Assembly: GCA_017467445.1 (NCBI GenBank) | Contig: JAFTSG010000008.1 | Coordinates: 1 to 64,000 of the forward strand | Length of the DNA stretch: 64,000 bases | Origin: Clostridia bacterium | Lineage (GTDB): Bacteria > Bacillota > Clostridia > RUG12999 | Reading direction: 5' to 3' | In this document: positions 17,871-23,218 of the stretch, in pieces | How the letters are laid out: the number at the start of each line of letters is the position of its first letter | How positions within the stretch are numbered: position 1 is the first letter of the stretch | Notes under the pieces: generated by a model | Database searches by the model: none | Seen by the model: the letters and a program-made list of their open reading frames with translations, nothing else | Told to the model about the DNA's origin: nothing | Translations under genes and position numbers: made by a program

Positions 17871-18611
17871 ATGGATAAAACAGTCAATATCCTTGGTGTA
17901 AACATATCAACTGCAACTGTTTCAGAGGCTGTTCAGATAATTTCGGGCACAATTTCGTCCGGAAAGAAAATGGGCGTTTTTACACCAAATTCTGAAATAA
18001 TACTTTCAGCTTATAAGAATGAGAATTTCAAAAATATCATCAACTCTGCTTCGCTTTGCACAGCCGACGGAATAGGTGTTATATATGCGTCAAAAATATT
18101 TGGTACACCAATTACCAAACGTTGTTCCGGATACGATGTTTCGCTTGAGCTTATCAAACAAATGGCAGATAATAATTATTCACTCTATTTATTCGGCGCA
18201 TCTCCCGGCGTTGCAGAAGCGGCAAAGAAAAAAATTGAAGAAGCAAACCCCGGCATTAATATTGTTGGGTGTCATGATGGATATTTTGACAGCGAAGAAG
18301 AAAAAAATATAATTAACGATATTAATGAAAAAACACCAAATGTTCTTTTTGTTTGCCTTGGTTCACCGAAACAGGAGAAATGGATTTATGACCATTTGAG
18401 TGACCTTGATATAAACGTTGCAATGGGTCTTGGCGGATGTCTTGATGTATATGCAGGTAACGTCAAACGAGCTCCACAGATTTTCATAAATCTGGGACTT
18501 GAATGGTTTTACAGACTTATCAAAGAGCCAAAACGATTTTTCCGTATGCTGGCACTGCCTAAATTTATGCTTACGGTACTTAAAATAAAGTTTTTTGGAG
18601 GTAAAAAATGA
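17871..18611 (+). CDS. WecG/TagA/CpsF-family glycosyltransferase
   Basis: The 246-residue enzyme shows the family landmarks: T-P-N-S-E near residue 40, A-D-G-I-G-V-I-Y-A near 68, L-F-G-A-S-P-G near 104, the L-G-S-P-K-Q-E-K-W motif near 163, and G-L-E-W-x-Y-R-L near 208. Family members add N-acetylmannosamine to lipid-linked GlcNAc in teichoic-acid or polysaccharide synthesis. The acceptor here is inferred. The ATG at 17871 (behind AAAGGAG) is chosen over a GTG six bases upstream. It overlaps thyX by 4 bp. Confidence 0.9.
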
Positions 18612-19339
18612 AAGTTGTATTATTATCGCACACTCCCGAACCCGAAAAAGTTGTTGCGGCTGCCGCAAAACTTTGTTATTCCTCAAGTGCAGTTACAGAA
18701 ATCATGGACGAGCTTAACGAAGAAAACACAAGCAAGTTTATAAATATGCTTATGAATATAGGTCACGAAAGTCCTGTTGAGCACGTTTCCTTCACTTTCG
18801 GTATAGAAGGAGTAAGCAGAAGTCTTCTCGCGCAGATTACGAGACACAGAATGGCATCTTATAGCGTTAAATCGCAAAGATATGTTGCAGAAGGTAATTT
18901 TGAATACATAACTCCTCCCGAAATTGAAAATATCCCCGAAGCAAGAGAAATTTTCCATGCAGCAATGCAGCGTGACCGTGAGGATTATAACAAACTTACA
19001 GAAATACTTAAGTCCAAATATATTTCCGAAGGTATGGACGAAAAACCTGCACAGAAAAAAGCTATTGAGGATGCAAGATTTGTTCTTGCCAATGCCTGCG
19101 AAACAAAAATGACAGTTACAATGAACGCAAGAAGTCTTTATAATTTCTTCAGAATAAGATGCTGCGAACGTGCACAGTGGGAAATTCGCGCTCTTGCAGA
19201 TGAAATGCTTCGTCTTGTAAAAGAGGTTGCTCCCGTACTGTTCAAAAATGCAGGTCCGTCCTGTGTGGCTGGTGCTTGTCCCGAAGGTAAAATGAGCTGT
19301 GGCAGGGCAGCAGAAAAGAGGAAATCATATGTCGGGTAG
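18608..19339 (+). CDS. thyX: Flavin-dependent thymidylate synthase
   Basis: The 243-residue protein has the ThyX signature R-H-R-x-x-S near residue 78, a preceding H-x-S-x-x-E-H pair and a C-terminal E-I-R motif. ThyX makes dTMP from dUMP with methylene-THF as one-carbon donor and FAD/NADPH as reductant, leaving THF rather than DHF. No thyA is seen in the window. It overlaps the upstream gene (ATGA) and is followed by tmk, forming a dTMP module. Confidence 0.95.
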
Positions 19340-20000
19340 ACTTATTGTTATAGAAGGTCTTGATTCAAGCGGAAAGGAAACTCAAAGCAAAAAGCTTGCG
19401 GAATACCTTTCTGACAAATATCCTCTTGTTAAACGTATTGAATTTCCTAACTATCAGAGTCCTTCTTCATCTCTTGTAAAAATGTATCTTGCAGGTGAAT
19501 TCGGCAAAGAAGCCGGCAGTGTAAATGCTTATGCAGCATCTGCTTTTTATGCCGTAGACAGATATGCGACATACAAAATGGATTTTGAAAAGCTTTATAA
19601 TGACGGTGCAATCATAATTGCTGACAGATATGTTACTTCCAACCTTATTCATCAAGCAAGCAAGATTGCCGATACGGCAGAAAGAGAAAAATATCTCGAT
19701 TGGGTATGCGATTTTGAATATAATCTTCTGTCGCTCCCCCGCCCTGATAAAGTAATTTTTCTTAATATGCCTACCGATGTCAGCGTAGCACTTATGAAAG
19801 AACGTGCAAATAAAGCGGATGGTTCAAACAAAAAGGATATTCACGAAAGTGATATAGAATATCTCAAAAACACATATAACTGCGCTATGGAAATGGTTAA
19901 AAAATATTCATGGGACTGTGTAAACTGCAGCGAAAATTCGCGGCCGCGCAGTATTGAAGATATTGCAAACGATATTATAAAACTTGTTGACGGAGAATGA
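19329..20000 (+). CDS. tmk: Thymidylate kinase
   Basis: The 223-residue P-loop kinase has an [12 protein letters not shown] loop at the start and the D-R-Y-V-T-S-N lid region near residue 100. It phosphorylates dTMP to dTDP. The GKETQ form of the P-loop is a known clostridial variant. The ATG at 19329, behind AGAGGAAATC, overlaps the thyX stop by 11 bp; the in-frame start 30 bp upstream is inside thyX and less likely. Confidence 0.92.
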
Positions 20001-20001
20001 A

Positions 20002-20913
20002 ATGAAAAAACTCTTGATTTTTGACGGTAACAGCATAGTAAACAGAGCCTTTTACGGCGTTAAGCTCCTTACAAATAAAGAGGGGCTTTATACTAATGCC
20101 GTTTACGGATTTCTAAATATTCTTTTAAAATATATTGAAAAAGAAACTCCGGATTATATGGTTATTGCATTTGATTTAAAGGCTCCTACTTTCAGACATA
20201 AAATGTATGACGCTTACAAAGCCGGCAGAAAAGGAATGCCAGAAGAGCTTGCTGTTCAAATGCCTGTTTTAAAAGAAGTTCTTGCAGCAATGAATATAAC
20301 TATGCTTTCAAAAGAAGGCTTTGAAGCCGATGACATAATCGGTACTGTTGCAGCTTACTGTGACAATAACAAAATAAGATGTATTATTGCAACAGGTGAC
20401 CGTGATTCATTCCAGCTTGCAAGCGAAAACACATCCATTTATCTCACATCAACAAGAATGGGCACTACATCAACGGAAATTATCACACCCGAAGTTGTTA
20501 AAGAAAAATATATGTCATTACCTTCGGCTATGATAGACATTAAAGCGCTTATGGGTGACAGTTCCGATAATATCCCCGGTGTTCCCGGAATCGGTGAAAA
20601 AACTGCTTGCAAACTCATTGCCGAATATGGCAGTATCGAAAACCTTTATGATAATATTGAAAATATAAACGGAAGTGTGAAAGCAAAGCTTGAAAATGGT
20701 AAAGACTCTGCTTTTTTAAGCAAGGACCTTGCTCGTATCGAAATCAACGCTCCGATTGATATCAACTTAAATGATTTCGAAATAAAACCGTATGATAATG
20801 AAAAGCTTACCGAATTGCTTGTTAATTTAGAGTTTAAAAACATTATGAATAAGCTTTCTTTGTCATCAGAAACAGCAGTTTCTTCTGTTTCAAAGATTAC
20901 GGAAAATATATAA
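20002..20913 (+). CDS. polA: DNA polymerase I, 5'-nuclease part (ends at an in-frame stop)
   Basis: The 303-residue frame is a complete 5'-3' exonuclease (FEN-like) domain: F-D-G-N-S at the start, Y-K-x-x-R near residue 74, the G-F-E-A-D-D-I-I-G acidic centre near 110, A-T-G-D-R-D near 132, and the G-D-x-S-D-N-I-P-G-V-P-G-I-G helix-hairpin-helix near 190. GGAG precedes the ATG at 20002, which lies one base after tmk. The frame stops at TAA 20911-20913, then continues open without shift into the rest of polA. See the stop-codon entry and the second part. Confidence 0.9.
   Translation: MKKLLIFDGNSIVNRAFYGVKLLTNKEGLYTNAVYGFLNILLKYIEKETPDYMVIAFDLKAPTFRHKMYDAYKAGRKGMPEELAVQMPVLKEVLAAMNITMLSKEGFEADDIIGTVAAYCDNNKIRCIIATGDRDSFQLASENTSIYLTSTRMGTTSTEIITPEVVKEKYMSLPSAMIDIKALMGDSSDNIPGVPGIGEKTACKLIAEYGSIENLYDNIENINGSVKAKLENGKDSAFLSKDLARIEINAPIDINLNDFEIKPYDNEKLTELLVNLEFKNIMNKLSLSSETAVSSVSKITENI
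20911..20913 (+). other. polA: Single in-frame TAA inside polA
   Basis: The codon series ...T-E-N-I-TAA-S-I-I-I-D-S... keeps one frame through the stop. From 20914 to 22653 the same frame is open and encodes the exonuclease-like and polymerase domains. The total, 20002-22653, equals 884 codons, a normal polA length. TAA could arise by one base change from AAA, GAA, CAA, TTA, TCA or a Tyr codon. It falls at the domain boundary. Confidence 0.9.
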
Positions 20914-21072
20914 TCTATTATTATTGATAGTGCTGATGAAATTGCAATATATATTAATAAAATTATTTCATCCAAAGAATTTTCGTATTACATTTTTAAC
21001 GACGAAACAGGTATATGCTCTGTAGCTGTTCTTGCCGAAAGTACACTTTATTTATTCAGTTTCGGTGTAGGG

Positions 21073-22653
21073 TTGCTTTCTAATTTCAGCATAACCGATA
21101 TAAAAGAAATATTTGAATGTAATACCAAAAAAATCACTCATTCATATAAAGAAGATATAATACTTCTTGATTCATACGGCATAAAATTAAATGAAGTGGC
21201 ATTTGATACTTCAATTGCTGCTTATCTTGATGCGCCTACCGCAAGCTCATATGATTTAGGGCTTCTTATGGGTTTCGAAACCTATGAAGAAAAGTTTGGC
21301 AAAGGGAAAAAACAACTTTCCCCTGCCGAAATTGATACTAACACACTTTGTGAATATGCAAAAAAGCTCTGTGCCGGAATTATCAGTTTAAAAGAAACAC
21401 ATACAAAGCTTATTGTAGAACGTTCTCAACATAAGCTTTATTTCGACATAGAACTACCGCTTTGCCGTGTTCTTGCGGATATGGAGCTTGCCGGATTTAA
21501 GGTTGATTTCAAACATCTTGATGATTACGGTAAGAAGCTTAATGCCGCAATAACCGTGCTGCAAAATTCCATATACGAAAAAGCAGGTGGCGAATTCAAT
21601 ATTAACTCCCCCAAACAGCTTGGTGAAGTTTTGTTTGAAATACTTGAACTTCCTGTTATTAAGAAAACAAAAACCGGCTATTCAACGGATGCGGATGTTC
21701 TTGAAAGATTGTATGATAAACACGAAATAGTTGCAGATATTCTTGATTTCAGGACATTAATCAAGCTTAAAAGCACTTATGCTGACGGGCTTATGCAGGT
21801 CATAAATAAAGCTGACGGCAAAATACATTCAAAATTCAATCAGACAGTTACTGCTACTGGCAGAATTAGTTCAACAGAACCTAACCTGCAAAATATTCCT
21901 GTGCGAATGCCGCTTGGCCGTGAAATCCGCAAAATGTTTGTACCGACCAATGATGAATATGTTCTTCTTGACGCTGACTATTCTCAGATTGAACTTCGTA
22001 TTCTCGCCCACGTTTCCGGCGATGAAACGCTTACAGATGCTTTCGAAACGGGCAAAGATATTCATAAAATAACTGCCGCATCGGCGTTTAATGTACCAAT
22101 CGATGATGTTACTCCCGAAATGCGCAGTAATGCAAAAGCCGTTAATTTTGGTATTGTATACGGTATTTCCGATTTTGCTCTTGCAGGAGATTTGCGAATT
22201 ACTAGGAAAATGGCAAAAGCATATATTGACGGATATTTTAGCACATATCCTGGTGTTAAAGAATATATGGATAGCATTATAGCAACAGCTAAAGAACAGG
22301 GATTTGTTTCAACTGTGCTTGGTAGACGTAGATATATTCCTGAACTTAAATCGCAGAAATTCGCCGAGCGTTCATTTGGCGAGCGTGTTGCACTTAATAC
22401 CCCTATTCAGGGAAGTTCTGCCGATATTATCAAAATTGCTATGGTAAATGTATATAATGCACTTAAAGCAGGAGGATATAAATCCAGAATTCTGCTTCAG
22501 GTACATGACGAACTTATTATTGAAGCACATAGAACAGAAGCTGATGCTGTTTCAAAAATTCTTAAAGAAAATATGGAAAATGCATTCAAGCTTAATGTTC
22601 CGCTTGTAGCGGATGTTCACGAAGGGACTAATTGGTATGAAGCAAAAGCCTGA
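21073..22653 (+). CDS. polA: DNA polymerase I, exonuclease-like plus polymerase part
   Basis: The coding frame continues from 20914, directly after the stop. The first canonical start in it is TTG at 21073, with no convincing ribosome site. It encodes a degenerate 3'-5' exonuclease-like region lacking the D-x-E and further acidic residues needed for proofreading, then the family A polymerase with motif A D-Y-S-Q-I-E-L-R, the O-helix R-x-x-x-K-A-V-N-F-G-I-V-Y-G and motif C Q-V-H-D-E-L. All catalytic residues are present, so the polymerase looks functional if translated. How it would be translated (readthrough, reinitiation, or not at all) is open. Confidence 0.88.
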   Translation: MLSNFSITDIKEIFECNTKKITHSYKEDIILLDSYGIKLNEVAFDTSIAAYLDAPTASSYDLGLLMGFETYEEKFGKGKKQLSPAEIDTNTLCEYAKKLCAGIISLKETHTKLIVERSQHKLYFDIELPLCRVLADMELAGFKVDFKHLDDYGKKLNAAITVLQNSIYEKAGGEFNINSPKQLGEVLFEILELPVIKKTKTGYSTDADVLERLYDKHEIVADILDFRTLIKLKSTYADGLMQVINKADGKIHSKFNQTVTATGRISSTEPNLQNIPVRMPLGREIRKMFVPTNDEYVLLDADYSQIELRILAHVSGDETLTDAFETGKDIHKITAASAFNVPIDDVTPEMRSNAKAVNFGIVYGISDFALAGDLRITRKMAKAYIDGYFSTYPGVKEYMDSIIATAKEQGFVSTVLGRRRYIPELKSQKFAERSFGERVALNTPIQGSSADIIKIAMVNVYNALKAGGYKSRILLQVHDELIIEAHRTEADAVSKILKENMENAFKLNVPLVADVHEGTNWYEAKA

Positions 22654-23218
22654 AATTTATGGTCTTACAGGCGGTAGTGGCAGTGGAAAATCTTCTGCCG
22701 CCGGAATTTTAAAAGAAAAAGGATTTTTTGTTATAGATGCTGATATAACAGCAAGGGAAATTTTGAACGGTGATGTTCTTGAAGAATTACGCCTTGCTTT
22801 TGGTGATTCCGTTATTAATCCCGACGGTACGCTTAACAGAAAAACCCTTGCAAAAATTGTATTTGCAGATGATAACAAATTATCGCTTCTTAATTCAATA
22901 ACACATCCCAAAATTGCACAGATGGTTATAAAAACAATTGAAACCTGCGGAAGTCATAAAGTTATTATTGATGCCGCAGCTCTTCTAGTGTGTAAAACCC
23001 TTATGGATATATGTGATAAGATAATTGTGGTTTGTGCAAATAAAGAAACAAGGATTTCCCGTATCATGACACGGGACTCACTTACATATGAAGAAGCTAA
23101 GTCAAGAATTAATTCACAAATGACGGACGAAGAAATGATTAAACTTGCCGATGTTGTATTGTACAATAACGGCACAATTGAAGATTTAAGGAGTACCATC
23201 AGTGATTGTTTTAGTTAA
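22637..23218 (+). CDS. coaE: Dephospho-CoA kinase
   Basis: The 193-residue kinase has a G-L-T-G-G-S-G-S-G-K-S P-loop at the start, D-A-D near residue 34, and the R-x-x-x-R pair with T-R-D near 140. It makes CoA from dephospho-CoA in the last step of CoA synthesis. The ATG at 22637 is inside the end of polA (17-bp overlap), the conserved polA-coaE coupling of Firmicutes. The polA-coaE arrangement is intact despite the polA stop. Confidence 0.93.
   Translation: MKQKPEIYGLTGGSGSGKSSAAGILKEKGFFVIDADITAREILNGDVLEELRLAFGDSVINPDGTLNRKTLAKIVFADDNKLSLLNSITHPKIAQMVIKTIETCGSHKVIIDAAALLVCKTLMDICDKIIVVCANKETRISRIMTRDSLTYEEAKSRINSQMTDEEMIKLADVVLYNNGTIEDLRSTISDCFS

Follow-up and report, generated by a model that had tools for sequence, protein, structure and literature searches.

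A Clostridia polA gene with one in-frame TAA between its nuclease and polymerase parts: most likely a recent nonsense change or a sequence error rather than a novel type of split enzyme

Introduction

A close described counterpart of the gene analyzed here is the polA1 allele of E. coli, in which an amber mutation at codon 342 (W342) leaves cells viable on the N-terminal 341 residues of DNA polymerase I (Pol I) (PMC6379578). In an engineered E. coli polA-split, a TGA overlaps a new ATG at codon 324 with little effect on viability, and E. coli polA without the Klenow part supports growth, though less well (PMC3686724). In C. difficile, transposon insertions in polA mapped to the exonuclease-like and polymerase domains and none to the nuclease, so that only the 5'-3' exonuclease domain is essential; the N-terminal nuclease alone is likewise required in Streptococcus and Haemophilus (PMC12548448). 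A survey of more than 3,000 species found the 5'-nuclease in nearly all of them, including those that lack Pol I, and the exonuclease-like domain is commonly inactivated in Firmicutes Pol I (PMC12926913).

Here we describe an interrupted polA within a 64-kb window at the start of a 137.6-kb contig, from a draft genome of 1.05 Mb in 16 contigs (61% complete). Sequence similarity and gene order point to Clostridia as its probable class. As in polA1, a single nonsense codon lies just past a complete 5'-nuclease domain, which would keep the nuclease and remove the polymerase, and the remainder of the gene is unaltered (PMC6379578); the window gene differs in carrying TAA rather than TAG, at codon 304, and in being a putative allele of an uncultured draft genome. 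Its predicted product would be nuclease-only, like the stand-alone Pol I-type 5'-3' exonucleases of species without Pol I (PMC12926913) and of two genomes in our class sample (G178 and G067), but in those no intact polymerase frame lies next to the nuclease. The likeness to C. difficile, Streptococcus and Haemophilus concerns the requirement for the nuclease, whereas the polA genes of these organisms are intact and the C. difficile evidence consists of transposon insertions. The break also falls between the nuclease and Klenow portions, as in the engineered polA-split; however, the designed ATG restart overlapping the stop in that construct (PMC3686724) has no counterpart that we could find in the window polA.

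The polA frame and its internal stop codon

The polA frame (20002-22653) spans 884 codons, a count that includes the internal TAA and the terminal TGA and leaves 882 sense codons, and it contains no frameshift and no second internal stop. The TAA (20911-20913), whose next base is T, divides the gene into a nuclease part of 303 aa and a downstream part of 579 aa (Table 1). In profile matches, the 303-aa half spans both PF02739 and PF01367 completely and the 579-aa half does the same for PF00476, together with weak 3'-5' exonuclease-like matches, which fits the common inactivation of that domain in Firmicutes (PMC12926913). The FEN-like 5'-3' nuclease, the DnaQ-like domain and the family A polymerase are all present, in order, in a frame cut by the TAA. 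Against NCBIfam NF004397 the halves score 346.9 and 701.5, the cut-off of 720 applying to the whole protein. The stop is located in the sole unconserved stretch of the protein, where identity to relatives is 0-16%; the nuclease and polymerase domains reach about 60%. The original prediction of an 884-codon polA unbroken except for this TAA, free of frameshifts, with intact nuclease and polymerase motifs and a stop in the linker between domains, was borne out on each of these points.

Table 1. Features of the interrupted polA gene and its neighbours, in window coordinates.
Feature	Position	Strand	Evidence
thyX (thymidylate synthase), conserved neighbour	18608..19339	+	ORF; name by sequence inspection; orthologue adjoins intact polA in G002, G005
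tmk-like kinase gene; 1 nt separates its end from polA	19329..20000	+	ORF; name by sequence inspection; synteny in G002, G005
5' part of polA (303 aa) with a complete 5'-nuclease (flap endonuclease) domain	20002..20910	+	PF02739 residues 3-170, E 1.6e-58; PF01367 residues 174-267, E 1.2e-35; 0/46 highly conserved positions changed
Internal TAA (codon 304); lies in the unconserved linker joining nuclease and exonuclease-like domain	20911..20913	+	sense codon in 7/7 family relatives
53 codons without ATG/GTG/TTG, encoding the start of the exonuclease-like domain	20914..21072	+	coding score 0.36 per codon; 21-26% identity to relatives (relatives among themselves: 27%)
Degenerate 3'-5' exonuclease-like domain, core match	21022..21336	+	PF22619 E 3.8e-09; PF01612 E 6.4e-05
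TTG, the first standard start in frame after the TAA; ribosome site weak	21073..21075	+	SD energy -3.0 kcal/mol (real-start median -7.8); equalled by 23% of random sites
Family A DNA polymerase domain	21514..22641	+	PF00476 E 8.3e-165; sole genome copy; 1/99 conserved positions changed
coaE (dephospho-CoA kinase), overlaps polA 3' end by 17 nt	22637..23218	+	ORF; name by sequence inspection; synteny in G002, G005

Conservation was evaluated across 39 aligned Pol I sequences, where the window protein departs at none of 46 highly conserved nuclease positions and at one of 99 polymerase positions, values typical of intact genes. Rates measured against two sister genera were 1.00 for the nuclease, 0.82 for the exonuclease-like domain and 1.44 for the polymerase, so that the polymerase-domain branch is mildly long (1.44 versus 1.00) and the two halves may differ slightly. 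In a simulation of neutral drift, the joint chance of the observed integrity was 0.027 at 1.5% divergence and 0.003 at 2%. Because there is no second stop or frameshift and a single polymerase position has changed, any loss of constraint would be younger than about 1.5% neutral divergence. Decay of the downstream part, which the original prediction had named, in combination with a sense codon in related strains, as a finding that would speak against it, was not observed. The intact downstream half implies that the polymerase half is still made, that the stop arose more recently than a typical species did, or that the stop is absent from the cells.

Relatives and genome context

The order is represented by nine genomes, eight besides the window's own, and a full-length uninterrupted polA is found in seven of these eight, at 54-57% identity. 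Comparison of the codon in related genomes, a check that the original prediction had called for, gave a sense codon aligned to the TAA in all seven family and order relatives with polA, a set that holds no same-species genome. The only congener, G001, is without polA, thyX, tmk and coaE, that is, the entire cluster, presumably owing to an assembly gap; since polA and its neighbours are all absent, this genome is uninformative on the TAA. A wider search of the contigs of other genomes for close polA relatives returned distant polA genes only. The class sample comprised 291 genomes, 280 of them with a polA match, and the number of interrupted genes among the matches listed is a lower bound: at least one other genome, G160, has an in-frame stop, the only one among the matches listed, at a different site in polA. 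No second linker stop appeared in a recheck of 32 class genomes with weak, multiple or odd matches.

The window polA lies in an orthologous gene neighbourhood, the order thyX-tmk-polA-coaE being present also in G002 and G005, the two genomes checked. No family A polymerase or Pol I-type 5'-nuclease other than those encoded by this gene was found in the 61%-complete genome, and neither a second polA or 5'-nuclease across this draft nor an alternative version of the polA region (strain variant) in the assembly was detected.

Translation restart sites and the genetic code

After the TAA, the first in-frame codons of the ATG/GTG/TTG set are TTG 21073 (53 codons), GTG 21196 (94) and ATG 21268 (118). 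Calculated pairing with the anti-SD sequence reaches -3.5 kcal/mol for ATT 20917 and ATT 20920 and -3.0 for TTG 21073, values that are weak for all candidates against a median of -7.8 kcal/mol over 46 real starts and -6.6 at the ATG of polA itself, and that about 14-23% of random sites equal. TTG 21073 also sits inside the exonuclease-like domain. No restart codon with a ribosome site near the stop was identified, in agreement with the earlier observation that TTG 21073 is the first canonical codon and lacks a clear ribosome site.

Across the 137.6-kb contig, TAA terminates 50 of 70 ORFs of at least 300 aa, and a scan of in-frame stops revealed no other gene bridged by such a stop, including by the same codon; the genetic code is therefore standard. 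The other in-frame stops with coding-like flanks on this contig are ordinary gene boundaries with a start within a few codons. The polA stop alone lacks a nearby start, being followed by 53 codons (159 nt) with a coding score of 0.36 per codon, and this interruption, unique among the contig stops with coding-like flanks, exceeds chance.

Interpretation of the interruption

We consider it very probable that the window carries an ordinary single-copy polA with one very recent nonsense change in the linker, either a real allele or a consensus/assembly error, and in our judgement a real allele is slightly the likelier of these two; most likely, the gene does not encode a split enzyme of a new type. 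Among the three options left by the original prediction, a recent nonsense mutation or error gained support from the intact relatives, the lack of decay and the lack of a good restart site, while readthrough and reinitiation obtained no positive evidence. That the only other stop among the matches listed, in G160, lies elsewhere in the gene matches the pattern expected of sporadic mutation or error. A literature search on such stops in draft genomes returned nothing useful. Two observations point the other way. The polymerase-domain branch is mildly long, so that the halves may differ slightly. The stop lies no more than about 20 codons from the domain boundary, the place expected of a functional split, and random placement would achieve this with a chance of about 3%, a suggestive position for which we retain a small probability of a real split enzyme.

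Such a split would consist of a nuclease made by normal translation that stops at the TAA and a Klenow-like second protein made by coupled restart, on the non-standard codons just past it (ATT 20917/20920) or on TTG 21073. We regard this as unlikely, even though the linker is precisely where the stop lies, the downstream half retains full conservation and the engineered E. coli polA-split has little effect on viability (PMC3686724), given the 53 codons without a standard start and candidate SD energies of -3.5 to -3.0 kcal/mol; moreover, a start at TTG 21073 would drop the front of the exonuclease-like domain, yet those codons look coding. No comparable linker split was seen among the matches listed for about 290 class genomes, which further counts against it, and a literature search yielded no relevant report on naturally split Pol I. 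Programmed or suppressor-mediated readthrough, giving full-length Pol I, would account for a frame open on both sides of the TAA and for the conservation of both halves, but it appears very unlikely: a strong general suppressor is hard to reconcile with TAA ending most long ORFs of the contig and bridging no other gene there, and the relatives, without a stop at this site, give no sign of conserved recoding. A TAA followed by T is, in addition, an efficient terminator. No tRNA genes were found within the 64-kb window. The existence of nuclease-only genomes in the class (G178, G067) would suit an old, established loss of the polymerase half, leaving a pseudogene downstream of a stand-alone nuclease; with 579 codons free of further lesions and the age limit of about 1.5% neutral divergence, this is extremely improbable.

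If the recent nonsense change is a real allele, the cell would be expected to make a nuclease-only protein of 303 aa, with Pol I polymerase scarce or absent. By analogy with E. coli polA1, primer and flap removal would continue and gaps would be filled by other DNA polymerases. That such a cell could survive is suggested, again by analogy, by the domain essentiality in C. difficile, the viability of polA1 and the nuclease-only G178 and G067. The allele would then be a wild counterpart of polA1, implying that Clostridia outside the laboratory live, at least transiently, on the Pol I nuclease only. If it is instead an error, it illustrates that single stops in draft genomes can mimic split genes.

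Other polA variants in the class

The stop in G160 is a TAG at L030:1610-1612 (G160:C211), past the exonuclease-like domain and at the start of the polymerase domain; apart from it, both parts are intact. Two polA matches gave many class genomes the appearance of a split gene, but in most of these the gene turned out to be a single open frame whose middle is poorly conserved. The polA of G208 (L043:678-3417) is frameshifted close to where the nuclease domain ends, and that of G250 is masked with N. The genomes G178 (96% complete) and G067 (100%) encode the Pol I-type 5'-nuclease alone, with no DNA_pol_A, in open frames of 315 aa (L059:1501-2427, minus strand) and 296 aa (C2:6311-7171), respectively. 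The reverse case occurs in G034 (L036:835-2988), whose 718-aa Pol I has a degenerate, shortened 5'-nuclease (PF02739 below cut-off, no PF01367); G183 and G223, of the same genus, show two-part polA matches too. Finally, G266 carries a second, distant 5'-nuclease homologue (G266:C199:7491-8354) with one in-frame TAA.
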